Assembly: GCA_030407315.1 (NCBI GenBank)
Contig: JALQPE010002642.1
Span: 1 to 64,000, forward strand
Direction: 5' to 3'
DNA: 64,000 nt
Source of the DNA: Asparagopsis taxiformis
Lineage: Eukaryota; Rhodophyta; Florideophyceae; Bonnemaisoniales; Bonnemaisoniaceae
Within the stretch, counting starts at the first letter, position 1, and each line of letters opens with the position of its first letter. The notes under the pieces are model-generated. The model saw nothing but the letters and a program-made list of their open reading frames with translations, did not search any database and was not told where the DNA came from. This document shows, one piece after another, positions 22,867 through 43,269 of the stretch. A program made the translations under genes and the position numbers.

Positions 22867-22889
22867 CACTAGGAAGGCACGAAATGCAC

Positions 22890-23860
22890 TGAGAACAGTG
22901 AAACAGTGTTTTATTGTGTCACCAAACACTGTTCATGGAACAAGAAGAGTACTGTCCGGAGAACAGTATATTTAAAACCGAGAACAGTATGGACAATTCA
23001 TAGAACGGTATTTCAAACATGAGAACGATGAAGAACGTTCCTGAGAACACTGTATTAGACTTCCAGGAAGCAATCTTACTGTTCTGGGAACACTATGTTG
23101 ACATTCTGGGACAGTAATCATTGTTCTGGGAACAGCGTGGTGGAGTACCCAGAACAGCTTCGAATACTCCAGGAACTATACAAACAACACCAAATGAACG
23201 GTGTAGACTGACATAATATCGGAACTGCAAACAATACAAACCGTTCTTTGGAGCAATGTAGTGAGAGGAGGAAAACGGAACATAGCGTTCGCTGAACAGT
23301 GAATTTGGAAGCAGGAACGACAAGGACTGTTCTAGGAGTACAGACATGGAACGCGACAAAACAGTAAAGACAGTCCCTGAAGTGATATAGATGGAGACTG
23401 GGATCACCGAAGATTGATCCGGAGCCAGTATGCATAGAAACCAGGAACAATGTTGGAAGTCCTGGGAACAATGAATCCAACGAACAAGGACACCATGTAC
23501 TGTCCTGGGAAGAGCAAAAAAGGCGGCCTGGATCATCACAGCCTGTTCTTGGAATACTAAAGTAGGAACATGGAGACGATGAGGGATGTTCCAGGAACAG
23601 TGAACATCGAAACGGGGAACAGTAGAGAGCGTTCTGCGAATAGTGAAAGTTCAATTCATGAACAGTATATACCGTTCTAGGAACAATGCGATTCGAAAAC
23701 AGGAACGTCATAAATTGTTCTGGGATCACTATAACTAAAAGACATGGATGCTGTACACCGTTCTAGGAGCTCTAAATTACCGAACCAGAAATACCATAAC
23801 GGTGTAAATTGAAACCTAATTTTCAAACCAGAAATGCCATAATGTGCTCCGGGAACACTA
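22890..23860. repeat. Left subterminal repeats of the CACTA element
   Basis: Dozens of GAACAGT/ACTGTTC-like words occur in both orientations, often as GTTCTRGGAACA near-palindromes about 30-70 bases apart. The same word recurs at the right end. In En/Spm such words bind TnpA; the equivalent protein here is unproven. Confidence 0.85.
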
Positions 23861-25518
23861 GATTTTGGGATGTATTGAAGACAGATATGGTAAAGTAGTG
23901 TAGGTGTGAAGGCAACAGATGCTCTGAAGCAATATTTATTTGGAAGGAAAGGACAGAGCTATATTAACGATAATGAAGATTGATAGATGCATCACCAAAA
24001 CAGTATCCGGCTCGTGGTATTTGAATTTTGAGATGGAGGAGTGTGATTGATGTACAGACTGTGCAAAGAAAGAAGAAATGTACAAGGAAAGAAAAAGAAG
24101 TGGTAAGCCCGGGCAATGATAGTGTAGAGTGATATCAGAAAACACCGGTTGCACAACCTGGGTAATGATAACGGAGAGTGATTTCAGGAAACACCGGTTG
24201 CACAACCACTGGCAGGATTATGAGCGGTTGAAAATGGTGAGTACAAACCAACGAAACATGGTGACTTGAAGGGTGCGAGATAGTTTGAAAGTAGTGCTGT
24301 CTCCATTGTCGAAGAAGGCCATTCGGAGTTGGGATAAATGTGAGTCGGCAAAATCATACAATGACGAAGATGATACGTGAAGTAGACAATAGATGAGCAA
24401 AATGAACCTTCCAAGAAGCGTGGAAAAGGTATGAGGTGTTCGGAACGATAGTGAAGAAGCGTGCAACAGGGATGAGGTGTTCGGAACGATAGTGTGAGAA
24501 AATTGCATGAGCGAGATTTTCCTGGAGAGATGTTATTGAGTTCTCTCTGTATTTATATGAGGCAAGGAGTGGGAGATCGTCTAGGAGCATAATTGGCAAC
24601 TTGCGGCTGGTGTCAGGAGTAGAGAAAAACCTAGGTTCGTGGGCTGAGTGATTTGGCAAGCTTGTTGGTCACTGGCCCGGAAGACACAATGTGAATTGCG
24701 ACGTACTACTTGCCAGCGGATAGTATCGCTTGCCAAGTCACAGCTGTGAACGGCGGAAATCAATCATATGTCAATGTATTTGAGCAGACTGGCCTGGCAA
24801 TACAATCATGGTTGAATATTAAAAATAGAATCATCGTAGAAAGGACGAAATAACCACTCTGACGCCCTGTTGAAGCAATGACCTGGCACAGTCTGGGAAC
24901 ATTAATGCCAAGTGATTTAGAAGTTTGTGATGACGGCTAGAGATACGCCTTGGGAGGTGTGATGTGGCCCGTAAGAGGTATTGTGTGAAAACCCAGGACG
25001 GAGGATGTCATCGGTTGGAGAACCTCTGACAGGCATGTGTGTTTGTCGGTATAATGATGGGTATGCACAGTAGTGGAACATGAGATGGAGGGCAGCAGGT
25101 GTTGAAGAGACCATGGGTTGCACAACCACTGACAGCCGAGGGCAGTGATTTAGCGGAAATGTAGCATTGAACTGGAGAGGGAAAGCCGCAGACGTCGGAG
25201 GCTGTCCTTCTGAAGTGCACTTGCATTTCATGAAATGCATGAAAGGAAGAAAGCTGCATGCAGCAGAAAGCTGCAGCTTTCACGCGAGAATAGAAGAGCG
25301 GCAAAATGTGGAAGGACTGCCTAATGTAACCAAATTATTGTAATAGAACAATGGCAGTTGTTTCGAAAACAGTGACGAACACACACAAGCAGAAACAGGT
25401 TTTGAAACCGGTGACAGTGAAGGAGAAACAGGTTTCGAAACCGGTGACAATGAAACAGGTTTCGAAACCGGTGACTGCCGAAAGGAATTGTATATTTCGG
25501 GTTGTGGATCAGTACAGT
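23861..25518. other. Spacer between left subterminal repeats and the transposase gene
   Basis: No convincing gene. It holds scattered GGTTGCACAACC palindromes (about 24147, 24197 and 25116), matching motifs found in the internal arrays. At 25394-25475 there are three copies of GGTTTYGAAACCGGTGAC. This is the 3' side of the transposase gene and may include its terminator. Confidence 0.5.
25394..25475. repeat. Three GGTTTYGAAACCGGTGAC repeats
   Basis: Each unit contains the palindrome GGTTTCGAAACC (one has TTTTGAAA) followed by GGTGAC. The ACCGGTTTC core recurs in the 57-bp array at 36 kb. Confidence 0.8.
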
Positions 25519-28500
25519 TTATGCCGTTCTAGGAGGGTAACCCAGGGATCTATCGACGACGTAATGTGAACCGCCATCCAGGAGTGCCGAAGAGTGGCTG
25601 ACCTGGTGGAGGGTAGTGTTTGCAGAGCATTTGTGTTCTGTGGAACATGCATGTATAGTTGCAACTCGAATCACGGAAGAAGTGAGGCGTAAAAGCTGTA
25701 AGCCAGATTTCCTAGCATGTATAACCATGGAACCTTTGGAAAGGATGCGGGGTAAGGGCCACACAGCTGCGAACGGCTCAGCAGTTCCACCCTCTACGTG
25801 AACACTCAAAATTGCGCAGACCAGGAAGGTGTATGCCTTGCTTATGTCGAAGAAGAAGTGTCGGTCGGATTCCACGTACGGCTGGCACAGCAAGGGCGCC
25901 GACACGTCCCCGAAAATCAGTGATTGGAGTGCAGTACCCCTTCTCAGGATGTGAACTGAGCTTTGTTGAAATACTGAATAAGGGGGAAGGTTACCAGTTG
26001 TCTTCCCGCGGATGGCGGATTTGTAATATGAAAAAAGTTTTCCCTCCCGGGGCTCTTCCGCGAAGGCAGAGAGCAGCAGCTTTTCAATGGAATATCTATC
26101 ATTTAGAGGAATCTCCTGATCGGTGGAATGAGATACCCACTTGTCTTTCAAAACCCAATGGGTAGAATAGATGGTTGGAAGCGTTAATGTAGGAGTATGA
26201 GAAAGTAAGTTCGTGACAAGCTTGATTTGGGGCTCTGTTGAACGCCTGTCACTTCCGACTTCTCCTATGGTTTCATGCGAGGCGTTTACAGTATCATTCA
26301 GTGCGGGCAAAAGTGGAGATCTTCCGGACAAGGGCAATTGTTCATGTCCGTCACCATATTTCATAACTGTTGATATTCTATGCTTCCAATCGTCGAAGAG
26401 GGCATGGGAAACTGCTTGTAGGTGTGGGTGCTGATGGTTAGACTTCGATATAATTCTCTTCAATGGCTGATGTGCACTTTCAAAGACAAGCTCGCCAAAA
26501 TGGCGTACATGTCCCATAGCAGGTATGGTGTGCCTATATAACTCTATTAGTCTGTGGGAGTTTGGCTTATCCAAATGCTGACGACAGAGTGGTGAAAGGC
26601 GGCATAGCATGTCCGATTTTGTCAAGAAGTCTTCCGCGGTACGCAGCAGAGCATGTTGCCAATACTCGCCAGCGTTTTCATTGTACATTTGAACACAGCC
26701 AACACCATCGGTTTGTAGGGAGGGATACCAGTAAGTGTTTGCCACAAGCTGGCGGTAGGTCGATAAAACAGCAGTTCCTTTCTCGTGGATGGCAGCACTG
26801 TCGAACGATAAAGCTGTGGTAGGATGAGCATCAGAAGAATTCGAATTTGTATTTGCACGGATTGTATAGCAAAGATCAGTGAACACCTCTGGAGCAATTG
26901 ATAGTGTGGAAAATAATCCTGATATGCTCATACTATACATACTGCATGCTGCAGGAGAGAAGATACGATGTTGTGCCACGAGACCGTTTGTTCGGAGAGC
27001 ATTGCAGATGTGAATATCAGCAAGTACTTGATATTCTCTCGGCAAAAGAACGAACGCCATGTTAAGTACATTCTTCGCAATTCCGGATAGGAGATGATCG
27101 GGAGCAACGAGGCAGGAACGGTAGGGATCAAAATGGGGGTAGGGAAGAATTGAGCCGTCTGAAAAGAACGGTCGTGGAGTAGTTCTGAACGCCTCGTTGA
27201 GGGCGGAATGAAGGGAAAACAAGGGGCTTTTCTTTGTGTCAGTGGATGCATCTTTCATTCCAATTGATTTGGACTCTTCTGAGGAAATATTTGAGTCACG
27301 GATGACCAAGGTCCTGTCCGCAGTTCGCATGAACGCAGGGTCGAGGCTATGCACTGCAATGGTAGAACAGTATCTACTTGCCTCAGTCATATGATTTGGA
27401 ATTCGTTTGAAGGAACAAAGATGACAGGGACAGGCGGAGTTGTGTCCCAATAAATCTAGAACGTTCGTGATTTCTGGATAATCTCCAATGAAGGCGACAA
27501 GATCTAAAAAAACTCGGATGTGATTACCGTCGGCGTCGAGCATACTCAGGCCATGTGTAGAATGATGTACGATGTCTCCGATGATTTCGTGGAGGATTGC
27601 ATTAGTAGAAACACCTGGCGGTGCAAGAGAAATAGTTCTGACACCTCGCCTGGAAGATCGAACATGACATGGCAGATTCAAAGGAATCATGTACACGCCA
27701 CCGGCTGACCCCTTCCTTTCGTTGTACTGGGAGAACCCGTCGCAGTACAACAGGATTCTGTAAATGAAGTACGGGGTACCATCATGTAGAGTGCCGAAGG
27801 ACTTGGTGGCGTTCGTGGATCTGGGGTTCGAACGCATTGTATGTTGCGGTGGAGATGCCTCAACAGAAAGAACTGTAGCAGAGAAGGAACGATAAGCAGC
27901 AGAGAGATCTGCAGCAGAGGTTTCTGGAACAATCGCTAATAGATAAGGGGAATAACTGTTTCGTAAGCGGAGATGACGGTGAACAATGAGGTGTGCAAAG
28001 CCAGAAGACGCTGGAACTGAAGAAGACAGTTTTGTAGTTTTCAGAAGTGTGCAAATATCACCAGCTCTCCAGAGGTTCTTCAGTTTCGACGCCACCGACT
28101 CGTATGCAAACCATGCAGTTTCATTAGTAGAGAAGTTGATATCTGGCGGTGGCCTCCGGACAAGGAAAGACTGCGTTCCTTTAGCGTACAATACGGTAGA
28201 GCCCGAAGGGCTGTGCTCAAACCGAAATGAACTCAGTAGGTCCATGATGTTCTTGGAAGGAGCGCGCAAAGTCAATTTGAGATTCATACCATGGTATAGA
28301 CGAATGTCTTCCTGAATTGGAGGCACACCCTGGGAATGGGAGGGCCGTGGAGCAGTACAGATTGGATCGAGGATATGGTCTCTATCAGTAATCATAGGGA
28401 TATCCTCTATGGTCTCATGAATAGTCGCTCCCGGTGTATTACTTACGGCACCTGTGGAGGTAGTTTTCATCTGTTCCCATAAAGGCTTGAAAGAAACATC

Positions 28501-29103
28501 ATGTCTCGCCCATGATGAGGGCAGGACGATTGAAACTGGTATCGTAGGCCCCCCTGTGATAGGGCCTATGTTTCTCGATTTCCGTGATTGGATACTTTGA
28601 TGCACAGATGCACCGGACTTGGAGATGTCGAGGGGAAGCAGGACCTGTTTTGACCTGGGGAGTGAAGAACTGACGACATGAGGGAGAATGTATCTTTGCA
28701 GAGTGGAATAAGATGGGAACGGAGATAATCCGCAGTTGGAGTACTCGACAAGCCAGTTCACACAGGTAACAAAAAATGTGTACTGATCGACTGAGAAACG
28801 CACTGATCCAGTCACGGACATAACAGCGATCAGAGATTGCCATGTAAAGTGGAAAGAGTATTCCTCGCCGTTTTCGGTATCGGACTCGTCATCCTCTTCG
28901 AGGTTGCTGAGTATCCTGTCGATTACAGCATCAACATCTTCATCCAGAACACCGTCCGTGAAGCTAGTCCGGTTGGGAAGACTTTCCGTCGTACGTGGAA
29001 CACATGCTATTGCAGTTGCGTTTCCAAGGGTTGACCAAGATCTGAATCGATCTTTTCGCAGCCTGTAATGTGTTCCAGAACGTAGAAGTCTGCGCCGAAC
29101 CAT
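25519..29103 (-). CDS. CACTA Tnp2-like transposase, 1194 residues
   Basis: The first ATG is at 29103. The central region has the hallmarks of Tnp2/Transposase_21 enzymes: YCDGFSQY (Asp about residue 455, comparable to the DGFNPF motif), then VYMIPLNLPCHVR, FIGDYPEITNVLDLLGH (Asp about 541) and a zinc-binding CPCHLC cluster (about 554-559). The third acidic catalytic residue could not be placed by eye. The protein cuts the CACTA ends and joins them to a new site in the nucleus. The ORF is free of stops and frameshifts over 3.6 kb, in contrast to the neighbouring elements. The N-terminus has an Asp/Glu-rich patch (LEEDDESDTENGEE). Its 5' flank (29104-30806) carries the 125-bp array. Confidence 0.8.
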   Translation of the reverse strand: MVRRRLLRSGTHYRLRKDRFRSWSTLGNATAIACVPRTTESLPNRTSFTDGVLDEDVDAVIDRILSNLEEDDESDTENGEEYSFHFTWQSLIAVMSVTGSVRFSVDQYTFFVTCVNWLVEYSNCGLSPFPSYSTLQRYILPHVVSSSLPRSKQVLLPLDISKSGASVHQSIQSRKSRNIGPITGGPTIPVSIVLPSSWARHDVSFKPLWEQMKTTSTGAVSNTPGATIHETIEDIPMITDRDHILDPICTAPRPSHSQGVPPIQEDIRLYHGMNLKLTLRAPSKNIMDLLSSFRFEHSPSGSTVLYAKGTQSFLVRRPPPDINFSTNETAWFAYESVASKLKNLWRAGDICTLLKTTKLSSSVPASSGFAHLIVHRHLRLRNSYSPYLLAIVPETSAADLSAAYRSFSATVLSVEASPPQHTMRSNPRSTNATKSFGTLHDGTPYFIYRILLYCDGFSQYNERKGSAGGVYMIPLNLPCHVRSSRRGVRTISLAPPGVSTNAILHEIIGDIVHHSTHGLSMLDADGNHIRVFLDLVAFIGDYPEITNVLDLLGHNSACPCHLCSFKRIPNHMTEASRYCSTIAVHSLDPAFMRTADRTLVIRDSNISSEESKSIGMKDASTDTKKSPLFSLHSALNEAFRTTPRPFFSDGSILPYPHFDPYRSCLVAPDHLLSGIAKNVLNMAFVLLPREYQVLADIHICNALRTNGLVAQHRIFSPAACSMYSMSISGLFSTLSIAPEVFTDLCYTIRANTNSNSSDAHPTTALSFDSAAIHEKGTAVLSTYRQLVANTYWYPSLQTDGVGCVQMYNENAGEYWQHALLRTAEDFLTKSDMLCRLSPLCRQHLDKPNSHRLIELYRHTIPAMGHVRHFGELVFESAHQPLKRIISKSNHQHPHLQAVSHALFDDWKHRISTVMKYGDGHEQLPLSGRSPLLPALNDTVNASHETIGEVGSDRRSTEPQIKLVTNLLSHTPTLTLPTIYSTHWVLKDKWVSHSTDQEIPLNDRYSIEKLLLSAFAEEPREGKLFSYYKSAIRGKTTGNLPPYSVFQQSSVHILRRGTALQSLIFGDVSAPLLCQPYVESDRHFFFDISKAYTFLVCAILSVHVEGGTAEPFAAVWPLPRILSKGSMVIHARKSGLQLLRLTSSVIRVATIHACSTEHKCSANTTLHQVSHSSALLDGGSHYVVDRSLGYPPRTA

Positions 29104-29604
29104 CTCCAGGCTGGTTACCAACGAGAGAGATCAATACCACGATACCAGACGAGCAGTGGTACAATGAACTGCGAGGTGCAGAGAACGAACCAGTTGACCT
29201 CGGTAATAGAACTAGGCGAAATTTGATATTCCCAATGTACTTTTATTTATCACCTATGTACAGATCAAAAATGGCCCTTAAAACACACCGGATCCAGAAC
29301 CTCGAGGTTACGGCGCAATTGAGATATGTTACCCATCCGCAGAGCCAGGACCATACGAGTTATCATCGTTGATACGACGATGACAGTATCATGCATGAAC
29401 GTGTCACTTGCATCTCTGCCACGGACGAGAACAAAACAATTGTTTTGTTTTGAAATGTTGATTAATCAACATCTCAATTCGCAGTGGCAGGGGTTAGCGA
29501 TATCACGTTTCAACAACGTAGTGAACATACTCGCCACAGTTCACGCCACCCCGCATAAGTATTCCAGACCACATTGCACAATCAATGAGTGCGTTTGTGT
29601 CACT
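29104..29604. promoter_or_regulatory. Transposase 5' flank before the array
   Basis: No gene. It contains a short inverted repeat near 29435-29475 (ACAATTGTTTTG and TTGATTAATCAA). A probable promoter region by position only. Confidence 0.3.
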
Positions 29605-30630
29605 GGTTTCACTACCCCTGACCAGCAGAAGTGTAGCGTGATGTGTCCTGGCTACACGTGTGGTCATCGGCCGCACGACCTCTGCCGAACACCCCCATTT
29701 TGGTTCCTCAGTGAGCCATCCATGTCCGTGGTTGCACAACCGCTGACCAGAACACGTGTAGCACAACAAATCCAGGCTACACGTGTGGTCATCGGCCGCA
29801 CGACCTCTGCTGAACACCCCCATTTTGGTTCCTCAGTGAGCCATCCATGTCCCTGGTTGCACAACCGCTGACCAGAACACGTGTAGCACAACGTATCCAG
29901 GCTACACGTGTGGTCATCGGCCGCACGACCTCTGCCGAACACCCCCATTTTGGTTCCTCAGTGAGCCATCCATGTCCCTGGTTGCACAACCGCTGACCAG
30001 AACACGTGTAGCACAACGTATCCAGGCTACACGTGTGGTCATCGGCCGCACGACCTCTGCCGAACACCCCCATTTTGGTTCCTCAGTGAGCCATCCATGT
30101 CCCTGGTTGCACAACCGCTGACCAGAACACGTGTAGCACAACGTATCCAGGCTACACGTGTGGTCATCGGCCGCACGACCTCTGCCGAACACCCCCATTT
30201 TGGTTCCTCAGTGAGCCATCCATGTCCCTGGTTGCACAACCGCTGACCAGAACACGTGTAGCACAACGTATCCAGGCTACACGTGTGGTCATCGGCCGCA
30301 CGACCTCTGCCGAACACCCCCATTTTGGTTCCTCAGTGAGCCATCCATGTCCCTGGTTGCACAACCGCTGACCAGAACACGTGTAGCACAACGTATCCAG
30401 GCTACACGTGTGGTCATCGGCCGCACGACCTCTGCTGAACACCCCCATTTTGGTTCCTCAGTGAGCCATCCATGTCCCTGGTTGCACAACCGCTGACCAG
30501 AACACGTGTAGCACAACGTATCCAGGCTACACGTGTGGTCATCGGCCGCACGACCTCTGCTGAACACCCCCATTTTGGTTCCTCAATGAGCCATCCATGT
30601 CCGTGGTTGCACAACCGCTGACCAGAACGT
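29605..30630. repeat. 125-bp minisatellite, eight units plus a divergent lead unit
   Basis: Units start at 29650 and every 125 bases to 30525, nearly identical. Each has CACGTGTGGTCATCGGCC, GGTTGCACAACC and ACACGTGTAGC. A divergent lead copy (29605) and a separate single copy (41431-41520) share the GGTCATCGGCCGCACGACC core. It lies between the transposase and helicase genes, upstream of the transposase. Short open frames across it repeat with the array and are not genes. Confidence 0.9.
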
Positions 30631-30755
30631 TGGTATTTGAAAAAATCCATGTCCCTGGCTGCACAACTGCTGACCAGAACGTTGGTATTTGAAAAAATCC
30701 ATGTCCCTGGCTGCACAACTGCTGACCAGAACGTTGGTATTTGAAAAAATCAAGT
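30626..30755. repeat. Short tandem repeat next to the 125-bp array, about three units
   Basis: Units of about 51-52 bp run AACGTTGGTATTTGAAAAAA, then TCCATGTCCCTGGCTGCACA, then ACTGCTGACCAG. They look like a shortened derivative of the 125-bp unit. Confidence 0.8.
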
Positions 30756-30806
30756 TTATTGGAAGGGAGGCCAACTATAGTTGAAAGGAAAGGGAGTTGT
30801 AGGAAG

Positions 30807-33800
30807 CTATGGTGAAGTTTCTTTCACAACCCTCGTCCAGTCAGCACTCTTTGATACCAAGAAATCGAATTCCCCCACTATGTATAGATGACGCATAGCC
30901 CGTGTGACCATCACATAAATACCGCGAACGTCATCAACTAAACCGAGGCTGTCATGAGTACTGCTGCTAGACGTTCTTCTCCCATTTCTTGTCGCACTGT
31001 ATATCACTACTGGACTTTCGCTACCCTGCGCAGCGGCAATAGTAGAAACAGTTATGGTGCAGGGCTCATGTTCGTAGACGTTCGCGAACATCGCAGCAAG
31101 ATGTGCAAGGATACAGGACCGTTGCTTGTTGTATACAGTCAAGATGAGAATATCTTCCTGGCGCATATTTGGAACGGTGAGGAGGATTCGGACCAATTCG
31201 GATATTAATATCGCCTCCGGAACGCTCGTGTCATAGCTTGTTTGCATTGATATTTCCCCATATGGAAAATGATTGTTCCTTCGCCTGAAATAAGGATCGA
31301 AGAGGCGGACGGGATGGGACAGGTCGGTAAGGCTGATATCCTTCGCCTCACTCGTGTAGATCGGGACACGAGCACCGTTCCCATAAACGTAAGGGATCAA
31401 CCACTTGGTATAAGTATCACTGGTTGGAACACAAGAGTGATGGTCGGCCACATTCCTGTGCGCTATGACATTGGAAACTCTGTTAATCTCCGGATGCATG
31501 CGATATTGCTCTTGAAGACAGACGCAGCGTACTATATTTGAGTGACGAAGATGCGATGATTCGTTACGAGCAAGCCTATCCAGCCAAGACATTGTATAGA
31601 TAGAGGACATGATGTTTCGCGGTCCACGCAGGACAGGGCTCTGTTGCATGGGATCTCCGAAGAGAGACAAAGGAGGCGCGTCCTCAACCTTAAAATTTTC
31701 AGCCAGAAATTGTACGAGGGGAAGGTAATCAACGTCGGCAGCTTGAGAAGCCTCATCAACAACGATTGCATCGAACTTTGCCGTTGGATTGTCTCTAAAT
31801 AACCGCCACAACGAACCGAAAGTGCTCAATACAATGCATGGAGATGACAGTTCCCCACTGGCTGCACCAAATAATATGCGCTTCCTTCCCCTGTTCGTGA
31901 CTGCACGTTCACTACCGCCGCTTGTATCTCGAGCTGTTTTCCGCTCGAAAGGAGGTCGCACAAGTGTGGGAACTGTAGAACGCGACTGGACCATGAAAAT
32001 ACCGTCAAGAAGTTTGGATTCGATGACATCCACGGCGGTATTCGATACAGACACGACTAGAATGCGTACCTTTGTCCCAGGTCTGTTAAGAGCAGAAATA
32101 GCTGTCGCGTGCACGCTACCACCAGCCACTCTGACTCGTGCCGCCTCAGCTTCTACCATGTCGTAGGCCACCTTGTTCAGAAGAGCAGAAATGTAATGCA
32201 TAATTGTACTCGTCTTCCCAGTTGCTGCTGGACCGACCACACAGCATACTCGATCAAGAAGCCCCCTTGGCTTTCGTTCTGACAGCTCCGACGATATCAG
32301 ACATTCCAACACTGCAGCTGCTTGAGATCTATTCATTTTCGGCGGACCATCGTGATGCACATCTGCTCCGTTTAGGTCTGTCATCTCAAGCATGTATTTC
32401 TGAGTGTTAGTGCTTCCAGATGGTACTAGAACAGCACCGGGCAAACAGTGCGCGAGAAGCTTTTCGTATTCTTCTCGAACTAAGGAACCATCCTGCTGTA
32501 GCCATCGCTGGTTAGATGTGGCCGCCCTTGAAGTGCCTAGGAACAGCTCATGCCATCCAGGATGTATCGCAGGAAGGTTTCGTATTGCTTCACATTGCAT
32601 ACCTTCTGTTCCGAGATAGCCTGATCTGCGAACGACTATTGCAAGCCCCTCCGTACCCTGCGAATATCGCGCATGTCGCACAGAACCCAAGGCGATAATT
32701 GTCAAAGAGAGGCGGGTTTGGGCACGGGTTTTGTTCGTAGTGAAATCTTCAACAACACCTAAGCAACATTCCAGTGGTTCCGTCTGTCGGCTGCGGTCTA
32801 TGACATCGACGGTGACGACATCCCAGCTTCTGAATGATACGCTGTCTCGGGTCGACGGTGCAGTTCGTGAAGCTTCGAACCTCCTACTATTCCCGTTGCC
32901 TGATGCGTCGGAATCTAGCCTATAGAGGTCGTAATCGTTATCGAGCAATGGGTCTCTTTGTGTAGCTGGATACCAGGTCTCATGCTTCTGTGCAACTTCC
33001 GCTAGTTCCAAAACCATCTTGTAAATACAAAGTGTGAAACTGGTTGACAAGAAGTCATACCACGAGAAGTACATGAAGTTCGGAGCCAGACGAGGATTCT
33101 GACCACGAAATATGACACGATTTCGTACCCAGCTACTCTCGAATCCCCGTCGCGGAAACGAGAAAGAGGCATTCGAAGACCAGTTCGCCAGTATTGCATT
33201 GGGTGAGAGATTTGTGTTCAAGGATATACCTTCTATTTGTATCGGGACATCGTCGTAGTGATACCCTTTGCGTGCAGCTCGCTGTACAGGTACCCGCGGT
33301 TTATGGCGCTGTTGCTGGACTGCCTGTTGCTGGACTGCCTCCTGCGGTATTGGTGGTGGATCCCAGACGGGTGAGGGTGGTGGTGCTGGCTGCACATCCA
33401 CTGATAGTGCGGGTCCAGCAGTTATCGACAACGAAGAAGATTTTGGCTTGGGCCGTTGTGACGATAGTGCCACCAGTGGTGGTACATCCACTGCAATTGA
33501 ATTTCGCTCTGGTCGCAAAACATGTGACGATACTGGTGGTAAATCCACTGAAATAGAAGTGTGCTCCGGTCGAACAACCTGTGACGAGTTGGTCAATTTC
33601 TGACCCAGATTTTTTTCCGGTGTGGTATTTGCAGTGTTCGGTGATTCCACTGTCTGCGGCCATGGTTGTTCGCATGTAGGACATACTTCCGCATGCCGAG
33701 GTTTCTTCGACGCACGATCCTGTCCGGGCTCCACAGCAGGTTGCACGCTTCCTGCACCACTGGTTTCTGGGCCTTCTTCTCCACCGCGCTGCGAGTCTTC

Positions 33801-35255
33801 TTCGACAGGACCATCCTCGGTTTGTGCAACCTGCCGACGTCGCACGGCACTACGACGTCTCGCACGAGCGGTCCGCTCGTCCATAGCAGTTCGTTCTGTT
33901 GGTACGATCTCATCTTCTTCATTTCGGTCACCGTTCGCTTCATCATTCCCTGCGACGGTATGTTCTAGTTGTCCATCTCTTTCCTCCTGCACGTTGGCCT
34001 CCGGCACTGGCGGCCGTTCGGGAGGTGAGCCACCAGCACTCTGTACGTTTCTTTCGTGATTTTTACGCCGTCCTGTATTTGTTGCTCCCTCCAATGGTCT
34101 CACCACGTCAACCTGGTTAATTCTTGTACTATTCTCTATGAATGCGGTCAGCCATGTCCGAATGCGAGCTTGTCTGCGTTGTTGGGATGATTCGCGTATG
34201 GAACTGCTAATGTTCTCTGCATCACTGTCTATAGCGGACAGCATGCGAGACATGAAATTTTCCAATGATGATCTCAGAGCATCATCATATCGCTGACCAT
34301 ACGCGATATTCGCCGGTAGCGCTTCCATTCCGACGAGAACGTGCATTACAACGGCATACAGTTTCGGTACCACACTCCTGTCTTCTTCGGCGTCCATTAC
34401 ATACTTGAACATAGCATTGGCACTAACCAGGTTCTCCTTCTTCAACACCTTTCTCCTCACTCCACGGTTTCCGGTCACGAATGTGCACTGCTCCGGGGTT
34501 GCGGCTCGTATTTTCCGTTCGGCAACAAATCTGAGGCCACCGAAAATGGCTTGTGAAATGATTGCATGTACATCACGAACCATGCCATAATTTTCAAGCG
34601 GCACGTCGTACTCGACCGGAGCGCAACAAGAATCTAGCACTTCCGGTATCCCACGGTCAGAGTTCCTGTCCTGGACTTTCGTTATTAGCAGACACACCCA
34701 TGACATTGTATGAATATACCATGATAGCATCCACGACCGACCTTCTTGGCTAATGCTCCAAGTAAAACTATGAGATGGATAATTATGTAGCTTGGCCTTT
34801 TGCATAGCTACAGCGTATATCCACTCATCAGACATCCACGACTCGATCTTCGAAAGGACGTTCCTGAAATCCAGAGCTGTTAGAACATTTTTCAACACTT
34901 TTTTCTTCGACGTAAAGGGTATCACGAAACCATTCATATCACCAAACACGCCTCTCGGATATAGACGCAAAGTATTCAGACATTGCTCTGTATAGAACAC
35001 GCATGCCCGTTGGACGACTCTGGTGACAACGTGAGCGGGCGGGGTAGGGCGGGTCCCGTTCCCAATATATAGATTACACTCCGAACTGTTGACGAACTCT
35101 TGTGCATCGCGCGTTACTTGTCTTTCCCATGCAGCCCACTGCGAAGCCGAAGTGTTATCACCAACAGGTGGCCGTCCTTGGATATATTGTTTAATAGAAG
35201 CGAACACATCCGTGGGAGACGAGTACGGTGTCTGTCTCCTCGGTGCTGGCGGCAT
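30807..35255 (-). CDS. UPF1-like superfamily 1 helicase encoded by the CACTA element, 1482 residues
   Basis: The first ATG is at 35255. The first ~650 residues are unrecognised, with charged, Arg-rich stretches near 400-540 and Pro/Ser-rich linkers. The last ~480 residues form an SF1 helicase core: Walker A GPAATGKTST (about 1008), motif Ia SVSNTAVDV, Walker B/II VVDEASQ (about 1166), motif III LFGDPMQQSP, motif IV QEQYRMHPEI (about 1250), motif V AAAQGSESPVVIYSATR, and motif VI VMVTRAMRHLYIVG (about 1450). DEASQ and YRMHP are typical of the UPF1/SEN1 group, unlike the PIF1-type helicases of Helitrons. It could unwind DNA or RNA during transposition, repair of the donor site, or protection of element transcripts from decay. 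The role is inferred. The ORF is intact and lies upstream of, and co-oriented with, the transposase. Confidence 0.85.
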   Translation of the reverse strand: MPPAPRRQTPYSSPTDVFASIKQYIQGRPPVGDNTSASQWAAWERQVTRDAQEFVNSSECNLYIGNGTRPTPPAHVVTRVVQRACVFYTEQCLNTLRLYPRGVFGDMNGFVIPFTSKKKVLKNVLTALDFRNVLSKIESWMSDEWIYAVAMQKAKLHNYPSHSFTWSISQEGRSWMLSWYIHTMSWVCLLITKVQDRNSDRGIPEVLDSCCAPVEYDVPLENYGMVRDVHAIISQAIFGGLRFVAERKIRAATPEQCTFVTGNRGVRRKVLKKENLVSANAMFKYVMDAEEDRSVVPKLYAVVMHVLVGMEALPANIAYGQRYDDALRSSLENFMSRMLSAIDSDAENISSSIRESSQQRRQARIRTWLTAFIENSTRINQVDVVRPLEGATNTGRRKNHERNVQSAGGSPPERPPVPEANVQEERDGQLEHTVAGNDEANGDRNEEDEIVPTERTAMDERTARARRRSAVRRRQVAQTEDGPVEEDSQRGGEEGPETSGAGSVQPAVEPGQDRASKKPRHAEVCPTCEQPWPQTVESPNTANTTPEKNLGQKLTNSSQVVRPEHTSISVDLPPVSSHVLRPERNSIAVDVPPLVALSSQRPKPKSSSLSITAGPALSVDVQPAPPPSPVWDPPPIPQEAVQQQAVQQQRHKPRVPVQRAARKGYHYDDVPIQIEGISLNTNLSPNAILANWSSNASFSFPRRGFESSWVRNRVIFRGQNPRLAPNFMYFSWYDFLSTSFTLCIYKMVLELAEVAQKHETWYPATQRDPLLDNDYDLYRLDSDASGNGNSRRFEASRTAPSTRDSVSFRSWDVVTVDVIDRSRQTEPLECCLGVVEDFTTNKTRAQTRLSLTIIALGSVRHARYSQGTEGLAIVVRRSGYLGTEGMQCEAIRNLPAIHPGWHELFLGTSRAATSNQRWLQQDGSLVREEYEKLLAHCLPGAVLVPSGSTNTQKYMLEMTDLNGADVHHDGPPKMNRSQAAAVLECLISSELSERKPRGLLDRVCCVVGPAATGKTSTIMHYISALLNKVAYDMVEAEAARVRVAGGSVHATAISALNRPGTKVRILVVSVSNTAVDVIESKLLDGIFMVQSRSTVPTLVRPPFERKTARDTSGGSERAVTNRGRKRILFGAASGELSSPCIVLSTFGSLWRLFRDNPTAKFDAIVVDEASQAADVDYLPLVQFLAENFKVEDAPPLSLFGDPMQQSPVLRGPRNIMSSIYTMSWLDRLARNESSHLRHSNIVRCVCLQEQYRMHPEINRVSNVIAHRNVADHHSCVPTSDTYTKWLIPYVYGNGARVPIYTSEAKDISLTDLSHPVRLFDPYFRRRNNHFPYGEISMQTSYDTSVPEAILISELVRILLTVPNMRQEDILILTVYNKQRSCILAHLAAMFANVYEHEPCTITVSTIAAAQGSESPVVIYSATRNGRRTSSSSTHDSLGLVDDVRGIYVMVTRAMRHLYIVGEFDFLVSKSADWTRVVKETSP

Positions 35256-37176
35256 CTTCAATCTTTCGTTTCTTGTGTGCAGTGGATCTCTGTGAACTTC
35301 GATTCTGCGGAGCTGATAAACAGAGTGCACTGTTTGTGTGCAATACTTGTAGAAGTCAAGAGCTCTTCACTCCTCACAAATCCTTGTCCTAGTAATAGGT
35401 TCAATATCAATTTACGTTCTCATCTCTATTGTAAGCGGTTTTGCTACCGTTCCTACCATCAAATTTTATAATTAATTACGAATGTTCGCGACCATTCCAA
35501 CGGTGCGGAATCGTGCCCTGAAACCGCGGTTTCATTGCGTTCGTTGCAGCCATCCTAGGACATTATGAAGCTTCATAATGTCAACACAAGCCGCCCCGAT
35601 GTGATGAAATATCCCTGAATCTTCCTCACGGTGGTTTGAATTGAAATGGAATATTCACACCCTTTGCGGTTAAGTGGTGAGTTTCATCCACTCCGTCCAC
35701 AGATCCAACGTTTCATATAAACACGGGAATAGCAGGAAAGTACAGAACCATCCAATAATTATGAGCCATCGTAATCTAATTATATCGCCATGGGACATGT
35801 TCTTAAGAAATTTCCCCTATTCAATTGGAAACGGTATGGCAAGGTGCCATTATTCCAACAAACTTTGCAGACTTACTGGAATCTTCTAAGTCTCGAGACC
35901 GGAACCAAGTTTAGTCCTTCCTTGTTGAATTCGGCAATAATGGTCCGCTCCAGTCGCTGTACATCTCTTTCCGAAACAAGACCAAGCCGTCCACTTCTCA
36001 CCAGTGTCACAACCAAACCACGGACAACCATTTGCACAACTACACACGTGTGCACCTCGTCACTGCCTTCACAACTGCCTGCAACAAGCTGCATGCTCGC
36101 ACACGTGTGCGCTCCGTCACCGGTTTCACAACCACGGACAACCATTTGCACAACTACACACGTGTGCACCTCGTCACTGCCTTCACAACCACGGACAACC
36201 ATTTGCACGACTACACACGTGTGCACCTCGTCATCGGTTTCACAACCACGGACAACCATTTGCACAACTACACACGTGTGCGCTCCGTCACCGGTTTCAC
36301 AACCACGGACAACCATTTGCACAACTACACACGTGTGCACCTCGTCACTGCCTTCACAACCACGGACAACCATTTGCACAACTACACATGTGTGCACCTC
36401 GTCACCGGTTTCACAACCACGGACAACCATTTGCACAACTACACACGTGTGCACCTCGTCATCGGTTTCACAACCACGGACAACCATTTGCACAACTACA
36501 CATGTGTGCACCTCGTCACCGGTTTCACAACCACGGACAACCATTTGCACAACTACACACGTGTGCACCTCGTCACCGGTTTCACAACCACGGACAACCA
36601 TTTGCACAACTACACACGTGTGCACCTCGTCACCGGTTTCACAACCACGGACAACCATTTGCACAACTACACACGTGTGCGCTCCGTCACCGGTTTCAAA
36701 ACCAAGGACAACCATTTGCACAACTACACACGTGTCCACCTCGTCACTGCCTTCACAACTGCCTGGAACAAGCTGCATGCTCGCACACGTGTGCGCTCCG
36801 TCACCGGTTTCACAACCACGGACAACCATTTGCACAACTACACATGTGTGCACTTCGTCACCGGTTTCAAAACCACGGACAACCATTTGCACAACTACAC
36901 ACGTGTGCACCTCGTCACTGCCTTCACAACTGCCTAGAACTAGCTGCATAACTACACACGTGTGCACTTCGTCACCGGTTGCACAACCACATGTGGTGAG
37001 GAGCAGGGCAGCTGCAGCTGTCCTGCTCCTCACTGACTTCATGACCGTGGATGAACTGCAAGTCTAGACACGTGTCCATGTCGTCCCTACTTCCACGACC
37101 GACCATGAACGTTCGTACAATAGTACTGAAATAATACTATTCTTGTTTGGGAACGATACATCTCAATCGTTTGTCG
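35256..37176. promoter_or_regulatory. Divergent intergenic region between helicase and the 456-residue gene
   Basis: About 1.9 kb separates two genes that start away from each other, so promoters for both should lie here. Most of it is the 57-bp minisatellite (36007-36990). The remainder (35331-36000) shows no gene. Confidence 0.5.
36007..36990. repeat. 57-bp minisatellite, about 17 units
   Basis: Units of the form GGTTTCACAACCACGGACAA, CCATTTGCACAACTACACAC, GTGTGCACCTCGTCACC. Variants carry CTCCGTCACC or CTGCCTTCACAACTGCC. ACACGTGTG and GGTTTCACAACC occur in nearly every unit. Because 57 is a multiple of three and no unit contains a stop, several frames on both strands stay open for up to 425 codons; I treat these as by-products. 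Confidence 0.9.
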
Positions 37177-38547: not shown

Positions 38548-39140
38548 ACATGACCGTTTGACCTCTCCGACCAATGCACATCGCATCCTCGCCTCAACGT
38601 TGGGTGCCCAGTTTTACAAATTGCCGGCAATTTCCGAACAAGCGACCGCTTGTTCGCACACTGCTTAATGGTTGCATACCATACTACTGGAACGAGCACT
38701 AGTTGCTTACCTACTGACATGCTCGTGAGCAGGTATACGAACATTGCCGCTACTGCTCAAGACGTTTTTGTAAGCAGTACTACCAGTGAATGATAGGTCA
38801 CTAGTCCTAGAATCTACTGCCAATAAGATCAATGCCTCTGTACGGTACCTGTCGTGGTGTCATTGGTTTTATTACCACTGGCGAGCGGTACAACAAATTC
38901 TATTCCGCGATTTTGGTCCCTGGTTGTGAGCCCTACTATCCCTGGCGTCACAGGTTGTATAGCCTGTGATTTGTGATTTAAACGGGTGCATGACCGGTAT
39001 TTTCCAACCTTCTCGGTTGCATAACGGATGACGAGCGATACAATACCTTTGCATGCACAGGTTCTACATCAATAAGCACACAACAGAAAGATATTCACTC
39101 TTCGCTGACGGCTCATTACCCACATATCACTACCAATCAT
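38548..39140. other. Convergent spacer
   Basis: About 600 bases between the 3' ends of the 456- and 591-residue genes. There is no ORF of note. Short inverted repeats such as ACAGGTTGTATAGCCTGTGA near 38950 could act in 3' end formation, but this is not demonstrable here. Confidence 0.4.
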
Positions 39141-40916
39141 CTACAGTGACTCGATCTGGCAGACATCGATGTCGTCTACAGAGTTGTGACCGTGGATAGT
39201 GAATGACTCGGGGTCTTCTCCGCTGTCCGAGTTATATGATTCAATTCCACTATCATCATTGTCCATGAGGTTCTTGAATTGGAGTGAAGTCATCCGCAAT
39301 ACGCGCTCCAAAGTATTTTTCCTGGTGTACTCTCCAGGAATGAGATCTGACACTCTAATCTGTGCCATTGAACCACTATCTCCAACGTTCTCTGCAACTG
39401 GCGTTGAGCTACTTGGTTCAACGTTCTCCCCAGACCATTCATTGGTCATAACGAGCTCCATGATCATGTGGCGAAACACCAGCGCTACCGAATAGGTTGT
39501 CTGGAGAGCCATCGGAGAAGAACCCAGGAAATCTTCCTTCCTTTGTCCTTGTACGTATGCTACGAGAAAATTGAAAGCAACTTCCATTATGTTCACCGTT
39601 CTAGTCATTGTAGCATCCTTCAGTTCGGCATCTTTCTTCACTTTCATTCCTGCGCATTCGGCAACTTTCACATCATATGATACAGAGAGATGGCATTCCT
39701 TACGTGATCGCATGAAATGTGCTGCTGTTGTTTTGTTCTCAGCGCATTCCTGGACACTGCGTCCCACTCTCGTTTCCGGCACGTTGGATGGACACATTAT
39801 ACATTCTTCCGGGAACTTCAGCTCAATTTTTGGTTTGTTATAAGACCCTTGCAACCACTCACAACATGTCCAGGGAGAAAGAAGGAATCCGATATCCTCA
39901 AAGAATTGACATTTGGACCGATCCCTGGCTTTTCGCAAGAATTCTGTAACGCGGCTGTAAAGTCCTGATGACAAAAACATAGCAACGCCATCGTTCCCCT
40001 CTAGTTCCTCGGAAGTGCTCGACTTGCGAGTATTCTCCGCATATTGCCTCGCGTACTTCATACATTTCGAGTTTATATATCCTTGCCTCAGCCATTCTGG
40101 GACGTGTCTTGTTGCAGCCTCCGAGTTCCCAGTTCCAGTCTGTGTGCAGGGCCTTCCTCCATTTCTATTTACACCATATAAATCTTCACAGTACGCAACG
40201 ATCTTCTTCACCAAGAAAAAGCGAAAGTTACAATGTGCCAAACCAAGACCCTTCCGCAAATTACTCTTAGCCATGTTCCCACGAAGCCCATACATGATTA
40301 TGCAAATCAACTTGGAGTAGAAGTTTTCATTCTCCTTTCCTCTGGAGGCAGTCCTGAAGAATGTGCAGACAGCCTCCATGGTCACGGTAGAAATGTTTTG
40401 AACATGGAATACAGCGTCCAGTTCTGTCCGCAATGTCGGATTGGAGCATTCTACGGAGCGCATTACCTGTTTGGGAGCAGACGAATTCTTCCTCAAACTT
40501 ACTGGCGTCCTTGCATTGTTTGCTGCCATGGTAACGTGAACATCTCCATTGAAACGCTTCAAACTATCATGGAGCTCGCTCACTTGCCCATGAAGTGTGG
40601 CTAGTTGTTCTTCTGTTCTGCGCATGTGGCTTTGGAATTCCTTCTTCATACTTTCCACTGCAGCAGACAGCATCACCCGGATGCTTTCAGAGTAGGCTAC
40701 GGAAGGCTCCGCTGTAGCTTCTTCTTGAGACGGGTTCTCTTCTGCTTGGACTGTATCTGGTTCCCTCATTTGTATTACTGGAGACGATTCAATGTCACCA
40801 TTATCATCTCTACGAGGACCACTTGAACGTCTGCCGCTGCTTGGCCTTTTCAGTTTCTTGCCCAATGGCTCTTGGTTTCGGTTGGTGACTCTGCGTCGTA
40901 TATTGGATCGCTGCAT
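39141..40916 (-). CDS. CACTA accessory protein, 591 residues, basic N-terminus and coiled coil
   Basis: It starts at ATG 40916. Residues 1-40 are strongly basic with a likely nuclear signal (GKKLKRPSSGRRSSGPRR). Residues about 85-120 form a coiled coil (MKKEFQSHMRRTEEQL, LHGQVSELHDSLKRF). A central part of unknown fold has many Cys residues (for example CPSNVPETR and VAECAGMKV). The last 60 residues are acidic and Ser-rich. No family is recognised. The layout, an ORF besides the transposase with basic and oligomerising regions, resembles what TnpA-type factors of En/Spm need in order to bind subterminal repeats; that function is inference. The frame is intact. Confidence 0.6.
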   Translation of the reverse strand: MQRSNIRRRVTNRNQEPLGKKLKRPSSGRRSSGPRRDDNGDIESSPVIQMREPDTVQAEENPSQEEATAEPSVAYSESIRVMLSAAVESMKKEFQSHMRRTEEQLATLHGQVSELHDSLKRFNGDVHVTMAANNARTPVSLRKNSSAPKQVMRSVECSNPTLRTELDAVFHVQNISTVTMEAVCTFFRTASRGKENENFYSKLICIIMYGLRGNMAKSNLRKGLGLAHCNFRFFLVKKIVAYCEDLYGVNRNGGRPCTQTGTGNSEAATRHVPEWLRQGYINSKCMKYARQYAENTRKSSTSEELEGNDGVAMFLSSGLYSRVTEFLRKARDRSKCQFFEDIGFLLSPWTCCEWLQGSYNKPKIELKFPEECIMCPSNVPETRVGRSVQECAENKTTAAHFMRSRKECHLSVSYDVKVAECAGMKVKKDAELKDATMTRTVNIMEVAFNFLVAYVQGQRKEDFLGSSPMALQTTYSVALVFRHMIMELVMTNEWSGENVEPSSSTPVAENVGDSGSMAQIRVSDLIPGEYTRKNTLERVLRMTSLQFKNLMDNDDSGIESYNSDSGEDPESFTIHGHNSVDDIDVCQIESL

Positions 40917-42929
40917 AATGCACCTTGGAACAGTGTGATACTACCAGGCAAGGTTTGTCGTAGCGATCCAGGATCGGCGTTTCGCTGCCTTCAGGATCAC
41001 TGGAGACCGGTGCAAAACTATGAACCTCTGTGCCTCTCAGCAATTATCAACGCCTAAAAATCGTGATCCTCACCTATCCGTCGTGGAACCACTACAATAC
41101 TGCATCACAAATAAGGCTTTTCCTATACAGTGATTTATAAGGCCAACTAGACACGACTTCAGCTCCACCTCACCCTACCTGCCACTCGTTTCGCCCCCTA
41201 CATCTTCCTAATCATCGGTCGCATGACTAGTGACCACCTTATGTCATTCTGTCAGTAGTTCAGCAACACATCAGTCGCATAACCACTGACCGCTGTTATG
41301 TCGTGCTGTAAAACGGTCATGTCGATGGTTTGGCTGCCAGCGCAGGGAGAAGCCCTAAATCAAAATTTCTCCCATATTTTCTGGTGGCCGTAGTGCGATC
41401 TCTGCAGCCAGTTCATCAGTGAGCCATTGCTGTCACTGGTTTCACTACCGCTGACCATAACACGAGTAGTATACTGTGTCCTGGCTCCACGTGTGGTCAT
41501 CGGCCGCACGACCTTCGGTACAACATAACAGTGAGTTGATGTCATAGACAGTACAGCGTGTAATACACCGCACAATCGCACATGTCGCACTGCAGCGGCA
41601 CAATGACATCAACACTCAGCGGCCACAACCGTCACATTCGATCATGTGACGCAACCGGTGCGCGCACTGAGATGCACTCCTTGCCAGAACAAATGTTCCA
41701 AACATTTCGCCTCGGCGAAGTTATCGCGTACAAAAAGTTGGTATGCAATCCACGCGACGGCTCGGAAAACTATTCCAATGTGCACACACGCACGCTCTCT
41801 TCCTGCGTACATGCAGGAAGCGGGCACCCACTACCACGACCACCCACAACCTTCTTGCAGATGACGACTACTAGCGATAGACGATACTGCGCTAGTATCG
41901 CAGTGTCGTCCATCGCCACAACGCCGCGGATCACATATCGGCAACTGCATCGATCGCACGCGAGTCATGTCGCAGCTTGCGGTGAGTGTGCACGCCGCAC
42001 TGAATCGCCGTGCGAACTTCCATCATCCAACATTTCGTTGATGAGTTCACAATTATCAACTGGCACATGCAGACAGCGCATACATTTCGTGTAGCAGTCT
42101 CATCCTCACAACAACCTCCTGTTTCTCAACTATTGTTTGTTCCACATGCCGAAAATATACTTGCGCCCAGCGCGAGACCAGTACCGCGTCGGAGTGCGTG
42201 CGGATGCTACCAAGCTTCCTCGATGCATGCTATCTTTTCCTACCATCTTTTGTCTCTCTGAAGGCTGCGCGAATGCAAATCATAGCGGTCTGCGCGTTAA
42301 CGCTGAAGCTGGGCTTGAATTTGGTCACGTTCCTTCTGGAGAGCGGCGTTGTCCGTTTCATGAGTGTTGGAAACGTCATCTGGGAGGTTACGGGTATTGG
42401 AAGCGGTACCAGGATTTTTGTTCTGCAGTTCAGCATGCTCCTCGCGCAAATTGTTGTCCCAAGTGGCGAGTCGGTTGTAGGCCGACTTAATCTTTGTGGC
42501 ATTTCAGCTCACCGTTTCCAGATTAACCTCTTCTGCATCATCGCATCTAACTTTGGTACAGTCTCACTGGCGAAGCGCCACATCTTCAATGAGTATCCCT
42601 CCATGCCGCTGTGTCCCGGTAGTAAAAGAAACTGAGATCGATTAAAAGGGGTCTTGTTTGTTCTTGGCCGTGTGATACTCAAATCTTCAGCACTACTTTA
42701 CCTCCTGTATTGTCTTTACCCCATATCTTCCACCTTCGCACGGCTAAGCCCAGTTCCTCCTTCGCTGTCCATCCGCTTCTTCGCCTCTACAATCGCATCA
42801 ACTATCTCTTCGACTGCTCTCCTCTGGTTGCCACACCAGTGACCAGAGCTTCATCCAGAAATTTCAGTTCGTGCTTTAGACTGAGTTCGGTTTAGACCGA
42901 TCAATTCGTAGTAGCATTGACCCGGAACA
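40917..42929. promoter_or_regulatory. 5' flank of the 591-residue gene up to the right subterminal repeats
   Basis: No confident gene. At 41431-41520 there is one isolated unit of the 125-bp repeat family, including CACGTGTGGTCATCGGCC. Related words lie near 41269 (CATAACCACTGACC). A minus-strand frame of about 67 codons (42497-42297) has coiled-coil character (REEHAELQNK, ALQKERDQIQAQLQR) but no clear start, and may be a remnant or exon. Confidence 0.45.
42297..42497 (-). pseudogene. Short coiled-coil-like frame, start unclear
   Basis: Read on the minus strand, about 67 codons end in TAA at 42297-42299. Glu/Gln/Arg-rich heptads (NNLREEHAELQNK and LQKERDQIQAQLQR) suggest real protein. Upstream the frame is lost near 42500, so this is a fragment, or an exon of a transcript starting near the right element end. 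Confidence 0.25.
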
Positions 42930-43260
42930 ACACTGATTTAAATCTTTGGAACGGTTTACACTGTTCCGTATGTGAGTAGTTCACCATCTCGGTTACCACA
43001 TTTACCGTTCTATGTTCAATGAATACTATTTTCACCGTTTCTCAGGACACTATTTACTGTTCTTTCGTAGATCAGTACATTCAAATCTCCAGAACAATAT
43101 ATACCGCTCTCAAATCAGTGTATTTGGAGGAAGAACAGTGCATTCACTGTTCATGGCGCACTACACACTGTCCTGAGACGATGTTGTTACTGTTTCTTCT
43201 GAAGAACACTAGAAATACTGTTCTGAAACACTATTTTTACTGTTCTGGAACCTTCATGCC
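42930..43260. repeat. Right subterminal repeats of the CACTA element
   Basis: Repeated TACTGTTCTG/GAACAGT words (for example at 43045, 43090, 43130, 43218 and 43238) run up to the terminal inverted repeat. The same word family as at the left end confirms that both ends belong to one element. Confidence 0.85.
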
Positions 43261-43269
43261 CTCCTAGTG

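Follow-up and report, generated by a model that had tools for sequence, protein, structure and literature searches.

The 64,000-bp stretch of DNA from the red alga Asparagopsis taxiformis analysed here (hereafter the window; contig JALQPE010002642.1, positions 1 to 64,000) contains a DNA transposon of 20,403 bp (22867-43269), in which a transposase gene is accompanied by a gene for a UPF1/SEN1-like helicase of superfamily 1 (SF1) and by two further open reading frames (ORFs), ORF466 and ORF591 (Table 1). The helicase is very probably an integral gene that the element has kept for a long time. Transposase, helicase and ORF591 are encoded on the minus strand and ORF466 on the plus strand; by comparison, no resample of the element among 100 contained a stop-free stretch of more than 262 codons.

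The ends of the element form terminal inverted repeats (TIRs) of the type CACTAGG...CCTAGTG, with 15 of 17 bases paired, and both are accompanied by arrays of the pentamer GAACA/TGTTC. The left 1000 bp contain 27 such motifs against an expectation of 4.2, and no more than 10 were seen in any of 200 Markov resamples; in the right 400 bp the count is 10, with 1.7 expected and at most 6 in the resamples. A mild excess is seen in the interior as well (81 per 18,000 bp, 52.4 expected, maximum 67 in 30 resamples), at about one sixth of the density of the subterminal arrays. A longer, 12-nt form of the motif (family D1) repeats in the left array with six 43-bp spacings in succession, a distance that is not singled out by the pair distances of the pentamer alone. 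In two other copies (C2162:45532 and C1952:14788) the left ends lie 301 bp farther out, which is exactly seven 43-bp units, and the array may grow in whole units of this length. The initial annotation of this DNA had described a single, intact-looking 20.4-kb transposon with CACTA ends; the paired ends, the subterminal arrays, the four ORFs and the copies found elsewhere bear this description out.

Table 1. Features of the transposon and of its target gene (window coordinates)
Feature	Position	Strand	Basis or remark
Left terminal inverted repeat CACTAGGAAGGCACGAA	22867..22883	+	End comparison
Right terminal inverted repeat CACTAGGAGGGCATGAA (minus-strand reading)	43253..43269	-	15/17 against left end
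Left subterminal array, GAACA/TGTTC motifs	22867..23866	.	Motif count against Markov resamples
Right subterminal array, GAACA/TGTTC as at left	42870..43269	.	Motif count
Plavaka-like/CMC transposase of 1200 aa with its first ATG at codon 7	25519..29121	-	PF18759 sub-threshold; alignment of 5
Minisatellite, 125-bp and 52-bp units, in transposase-helicase gap	29598..30751	.	Repeat analysis
SF1 UPF1/SEN1-like helicase, 1507 aa from GTG, 1482 aa from ATG	30807..35330	-	Pfam, motifs, copies
Helicase motif I, GPAATGKT (residue 1033)	32211..32234	-	Kept in subfamily B
Helicase motif II, DEASQ (residue 1192)	31743..31757	-	B: kept at C3064; EEASQ in broken C2652
Helicase QYRMHP (residue 1275)	31491..31508	-	B: kept at C3064; lost in broken C2652
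Helicase motif VI, VMVTRA (residue 1473)	30897..30914	-	B: kept at C3064
57-bp tandem repeat, 17 copies	36016..36990	.	Overlapping ORFs are by-products
ORF466, 466 aa	37147..38547	+	No Pfam, NCBIfam or PHROGs family
ORF591, 591 aa, proposed TnpA-like partner	39141..40916	-	No Pfam match
Target gene, 5' half, high-copy Plavaka transposase	21737..22866	+	PF18759 81.4 bits
Target gene, 3' part, same Plavaka transposase; about 42 bp beside element missing	43270..43995	+	Flank alignment

A 425-aa ORF at 35790-37067 was rejected as a gene because it lies on the 57-bp tandem repeat, which is open in several frames, and its TM_HPP match was taken as a by-product. Searches of the element for RNA families and tRNAs gave no Rfam match and no tRNA.

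Copies and target sites

The searches of the source assembly (141 Mb, 3156 contigs, the window being contig C2514) scored the best candidates: 39 of 1936 with the transposase, 31 of 104 with the helicase and all 55 with the helicase domain PF13087. Among the matches listed, the transposase has at least 45, 17 of them full length at 100%, and 17 of the 32 helicase matches are full length, 100% identical and stop-free; the first 434 bp of the element are identical at 25 of 40 places, and the right 400 bp are 97-100% identical at 26 of 40 and 95% identical at 14. ORF466 and ORF591 recur at many places as well. At least nine contigs carry all four ORFs at full length (C466, C1551, C1877, C1952, C2057, C2162, C2514, C2664 and C2838), and these are the full copies with the same gene set for which the initial annotation had proposed a search.

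Fourteen of the 17 full-length transposase loci, the window included, were compared base by base, and the 13 others show no mismatch in 3600 bp; the remaining three, on the opposite strand, are 99.9% identical by BLAST. Since the transposase coding sequence is free of mismatches at 13 other places, the burst of this family is very recent. Copies with an identical transposase coding sequence nevertheless differ in length, as the gap from transposase to helicase varies among them in steps of 125 and 52 bp, the unit lengths of the minisatellite within it.

Both flanks were read for the window copy and ten others, and eight of these 11 copies have 2-bp target duplications: TA in C2988, CA in C2664, GG in C2162, CG in C1952, TG in C1877, CA in C1957, GT in C631 and CA in C736. 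By chance, a 2-bp match of the flanks (1 in 16) would be expected in about 0.7 of 11 copies. The eight include one shortened copy (C1957), two whose end spacing marks them as 14-kb derivatives (C631, C736) and one whose transposase match begins at residue 187 (C2988). As regards the six four-ORF copies read at both ends, a duplication is found in C2664, C1877, C1952 and C2162 and none in the window and C2838. C1833, too, has no duplication.

In the window the flanks read CT on the left and TG on the right, and the duplication is absent owing to the loss of about 42 bp from the right flank. The element interrupts a high-copy Plavaka transposase gene, and 37 of the 40 matches listed for this gene span the empty site, with 37 to 40 bp beyond the joined flanks of the window; three of these empty copies were fetched and aligned. 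A further contig, C698, carries the right end of the element, then CT and those 40 bp, and then 200 bp that match the right flank of the window exactly; the three fetched empty copies differ from this flank at one base in 120. Given the same target, the CT duplication and the exact flank in C698, whose own element is incomplete, the two ends in the window derive most simply from one insertion. Judging from these alignments, the window insertion most likely once had a CT duplication, and a stretch of about 42 bp next to its right end was lost later. A search for a second insertion 40 bp downstream, which could have accounted for the absent duplication, gave no match with up to two mismatches allowed.

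The surroundings are themselves rich in mobile DNA, and nested transposons make up much of the window. By their kind, the Plavaka and Gypsy genes near the element would suggest a fungal genome. Two 99%-identical copies of the high-copy Plavaka gene lie at 3326-5221 and 21737-22866, the element being within the second, and two Gypsy-type chromodomain retrotransposons lie on the minus strand at 8553-15487 and 50309-56484.

The transposase and the helicase

The transposase matches the Plavaka family PF18759 at 19.8 bits (E 0.00052), and a relative from a second subfamily (B, contig C3064) at 24.0 bits (E 2.6e-05), both below the cut-off of 26.3; the match centres on a D...CxxC motif. In five aligned transposases D461, D540, D547 and C566-x2-C569 are invariant and fit the CMC pattern, and E881 is a candidate for the third catalytic residue. 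Transposase_21 (PF02992) has no match in the window transposase, and one relative reaches 14.4 bits against a cut-off of 28.6. A profile comparison with the Plavaka gene of the window aligned 64 columns around CxxC with a probability of 1.9%. We also searched a database of 5.8 billion proteins, scoring per search the 7993 to 8000 candidates that share most words; for the transposase (best 7999 scored) it returned three relatives at 25-30% identity beside its own record. A viral origin was rejected as far as one viral-contig scan reaches, in which 97 stretches matched the pattern and none was confirmed.

Considering these features together, the element has the 5'-CAC...GTG-3' ends of CACTA/EnSpm transposons in the strict sense and lacks their 3-bp duplication and Transposase_21 domain; it has a duplication of the length known for Plavaka (2 or 3 bp) and lacks both a PF18759 match over the cut-off and the TGT..ACA or CATCA..TGATG ends. 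It agrees with the broader CMC/CMCT definition (5'-CA..TG-3' ends, duplications of 2-5 bp). On its sequence it is thus placed within the CMC clade, nearest Plavaka, and fits neither of the two Plavaka lineages (PlavakaA, PlavakaB) nor EnSpm elements with 3-bp duplications; the name CACTA, which the initial annotation had used, holds for the ends and in a broad sense, and the textbook En/Spm type does not apply. A Helitron can be set aside, as that annotation had also argued, since the element has TIRs and none of the ORFs scanned matches Rep or PIF1.

The helicase carries AAA_12 (PF13087, 82.3 bits) and AAA_11 (PF13086, 53.2 bits) domains, both well over cut-offs of 27, and motifs I, II, III, YRMHP, V and VI, in agreement with the 1482-residue UPF1/SEN1-type protein and the named SF1 motifs of the initial annotation. 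Among solved structures three chains are matched, of SEN1, which is nearest, and of one protein named 5'-3' RNA helicase-like, at a very low similarity (27.3 bits overall, 15.1 bits for the best SEN1 domain). In the protein database, with the best candidates scored, residues 980-1507 gave 27 matches at 23-32% identity, the best at 62 bits and 26%, and a profile built from three of the element helicases yielded two, the best at 51 bits; none of the scored candidates is a close relative. The weak matches include proteins named tRNA-splicing-endonuclease positive effectors, which we take to be of SEN1 type, as well as senataxin and a SEN1 N-terminal-domain protein.

The genome contains 46 PF13087 matches. 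Eight were classed as host genes (101.4-207.3 bits) and 37 are of transposon type, a class set by score (77.6-88.7 bits) and position, from which a single fragment at 29.9 bits was left out. Six of the host UPF1-like genes, all but C2342 and C780, were compared with the PDB, and C1618 gave weak matches only. The initial annotation had called for a phylogeny against the host genes, and in a tree of helicase cores those of the transposons group in a single clade (100/100), whose branch of 7.66 changes per site separates it from the seven host genes compared. Among these are UPF1 (C2462, which scores 618 bits against human UPF1) and genes of SEN1-like type. For this tree a motif filter dropped 8 of the 27 database matches, including the best-scoring Eimeria proteins, which left 19 of 27 in the alignment (A2); C2523 was left out. 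With branches of this length the place of the transposon clade is uncertain, and only its remoteness from the host genes can be regarded as safe on these sequences. We therefore reject a recent capture of a host gene, one of the possibilities first raised for this helicase, given its distance from the seven host UPF1-like genes compared and its presence in a sister subfamily.

Retention of the helicase within the family

At 29 of the 37 transposon-type places a whole or partial transposase lies downstream of the helicase on the same strand and contig, in 27 cases within 1.9 kb. Among the eight helicase places that have no transposase, C2619, C729 and C724 are near contig ends and C776, C3061 and C2523 are not.

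The association extends to subfamily B. In C3064 a left end that matches that of the element (24421; 73.6% over 72 bp) lies 2 kb from where a full, stop-free transposase of 60% identity ends. At a further 15.4 kb from this transposase, in the same strand and order, there is a helicase ORF with 54% identity over 560 residues, in which motifs I, II, GDPMQQ, YRMHP, V and VI are kept. Copia-like, Sel1-repeat and HEAT-like ORFs lie in between, the Copia-like and HEAT-like labels having been assigned by eye. Sel1-repeat ORFs (59.8 and 33.4 bits) are found amid B-type transposase and helicase at L071 1686-3995 and C3064:41542-43688. A broken B helicase is present in C2652 and its near-identical twin C2435; in C2652 its pieces (31-52%) adjoin relatives of ORF466 (38%) and ORF591 (46%), and motif II and YRMHP are already altered.

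A signal of purifying selection is given by the ratios of nonsynonymous to synonymous change (dN/dS), calculated by the Nei-Gojobori method on tblastn codon pairs. Between subfamilies A and B the helicase has a ratio of 0.205 (0.14-0.28) and the transposase one of 0.177 (0.14-0.22), values near 0.2 that are rough with synonymous divergence saturated (dS 1.7-2.1). Between A and C112 it is 0.557 (0.44-0.71) for the helicase, 0.323 (0.24-0.44) for the transposase and 0.31 for ORF466; the helicase core has 0.47 (0.32-0.72). From the linkage in B, the motifs kept, these ratios and the positions of the genes, the helicase has most likely been retained for a long time, though less strongly constrained than the transposase, and the sequences suggest that selection has most likely kept it since before the split of A and B.

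Several observations weigh against this interpretation. Besides the saturation just mentioned, constraint against C112 is weaker in the helicase than in the transposase, and the linker (0.69, 0.43-1.13) and the middle part (0.61, 0.30-1.24) are compatible with neutrality in that comparison. Transposase and helicase of C3064 would belong to one element in spite of the 15.4 kb and the other ORFs between them. Moreover, elements with the same ends have spread without the helicase, and such derivatives could be moved in trans. One form, in C1833, measures 14.2 kb and has neither the helicase core nor the transposase, and among the matches listed PF13087 is absent from all 14 contigs whose right end is 95% identical. 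Finally, C1745 encodes a transposase of about 40% identity with a relative of ORF591 beside it and has no helicase in the 17.4 kb read.

The C1833 form (L049 2954-4882) contains a 642-aa frame that fuses the N-terminal part of the helicase to the last 58 residues of the transposase, and its product is possibly a regulator, as products of deletion derivatives can be. Its right half differs and includes an NB-ARC-like fragment (L050 3157-3705; 19.8 bits, below the cut-off of 23.5), which would represent capture of a gene piece. C631 and C736 resemble C1833 in the spacing of their two ends (14.1 and 14.4 kb). In 3 kb of C204 there was no match to the four element proteins.

ORF591 has relatives down to 24% identity at many other places of the genome, several of them open frames of about 490-700 aa (24-33%). 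Its family may be a general partner of CMC transposases that has no Pfam model; from this distribution ORF591 looks like such a general partner and the helicase like a component particular to this lineage.

Possible role of the helicase and known systems

We hold with moderate confidence that this is a recently active, four-gene, cut-and-paste CMC transposon whose helicase is a standing accessory factor in DNA transposition. In such a scheme the transposase would cut at the CACTA ends and generate the 2-bp duplications, and ORF591, perhaps together with ORF466, would probably bind the subterminal repeats and assemble the ends like TnpA, which in En/Spm binds subterminal repeats and brings the ends together. 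The helicase, presumably moving 5' to 3' on single strands as its family suggests, could open or clear the ends; alternatively, it could aid the host in repairing and copying through the donor gap. The 125- and 52-bp steps of the minisatellite and the 301-bp (7 x 43) shift of the left end are compatible with repair synthesis at transposition and are not proof of it. More tentatively, we propose that its substrate in transposition is DNA and not RNA.

A role on RNA or RNA:DNA hybrids is possible and rather less likely: a long-kept helicase could resolve R-loops on a long and repetitive transcription unit, or shield the transcripts of the element from nonsense-mediated decay or small-RNA silencing. 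The nature of the matched proteins, namely SEN1 and the RNA helicase-like protein among solved chains and the effector, senataxin and SEN1-domain proteins in the database, points in this direction, as does the repetitive intergenic region. UPF1-like helicases, however, act on DNA as well as RNA; at 27.3 bits overall and 15.1 for the best SEN1 domain, placement in the family says little on substrate, and the known helicases of other DDE transposons are of RecQ or DEAD/Helicase_C types.

A stronger form of the transposition hypothesis, in which the element represents an undescribed CMC lineage with an obligate UPF1-like helicase, co-inherited with the transposase and driving excision or the copying of the donor gap, seems to us doubtful. 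If it were true, transposition of this kind would stand between plain cut-and-paste and replicative transfer.

It is improbable that the helicase is passenger cargo, that is, a cellular gene carried without a role in the life of the element. The same-ended derivatives and the C1745 relative without a helicase would suit this explanation, and so would the other gene-like pieces in the C3064 region and in the C1833 derivative (Sel1, NB-ARC-like and, by eye, HEAT-like). The initial annotation had expected cargo to be missing from other copies and near-identical to a host gene: the first is true of some derivatives, whereas the helicase is far from all seven host helicases compared, occurs in two subfamilies that are about 55-60% identical, has retained its motifs in C3064 and has dN/dS below 1. 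That the element is a composite or assembly artefact, with ends of different elements around unrelated genes, is barely credible: the missing duplications in the window (with its lost flank), C2838 and C1833 and the contigs in which an element end coincides with the contig start or two copies overlap (C2057, C1551, C1552) could suggest it, yet four other four-ORF copies have 2-bp duplications with differing flanks, C698 points most simply to one insertion for both window ends, and for the family as a whole, with eight duplicated copies in 11, the idea fails.

The element can be compared with several known systems. Plavaka and EnSpm are united in one CMCT clade, mostly with CA..TG ends and duplications of 2-5 bp, within which PlavakaA ends in TGT and PlavakaB in CATCA and Plavaka duplications measure 2 or 3 bp (2025, PMC12730594). 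The element resembles the fungal Plavaka transposons in its weak PF18759 match around D...CxxC and in its 2-bp duplications, and differs from them in its CACTAGG termini, its sub-threshold PF18759 score and its helicase, which the available part of the Plavaka account does not mention (PMC12730594). With En/Spm it shares CACTA ends, subterminal repeats and more than one gene; unlike En/Spm, it makes 2-bp and not 3-bp duplications, has no Transposase_21 match in the window transposase and carries a UPF1-like helicase. Large CACTA elements with 4-5 ORFs are recorded for the red alga Chondrus (PMC6431247).

The AAA_11/AAA_12 core and the GPxxTGKT, DExxQ and YRMHP-type motifs are those of host SEN1/UPF1-like SF1B helicases, from which the element proteins are distinguished by PF13087 scores of 77.6-88.7 as against 101.4-207.3 bits. 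For genome annotation it is relevant that a UPF1-like domain beside a transposase is not necessarily a host gene. Helitrons likewise have a helicase within a DNA transposon; theirs is PIF1-like and fused to Rep, whereas here a separate SF1 gene stands beside a CMC-like transposase. RecQ and DEAD/Helicase_C helicases, for their part, belong to superfamily 2.

Among DDE transposons that carry their own helicase, and are comparable in that role, AcademH and KolobokH belong to transposon superfamilies of another clade, and their helicases are of RecQ or DEAD/Helicase_C type where the present one is SF1. KolobokH carries a RecQ helicase and is found only from fungi (PMC9587614), AcademH makes duplications of 9 or 10 bp (PMC10045372), and the helicase domain types are given as DEAD/Helicase_C, with PIF1 and Helitron_like_N also named (PMC10799480). 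Searches of the openly licensed literature gave no report of a CMC element with a UPF1-like SF1 helicase. Helicases in DDE transposons are thus already known, and a UPF1-like one in a CMC element is, as far as our searches reach, a new combination. The many near-identical and apparently intact copies make the need for it testable. If a UPF1-like helicase has indeed been kept in a CACTA-like element, DDE transposons have recruited helicases more than once and from different enzymes, and some of them may need unwinding.

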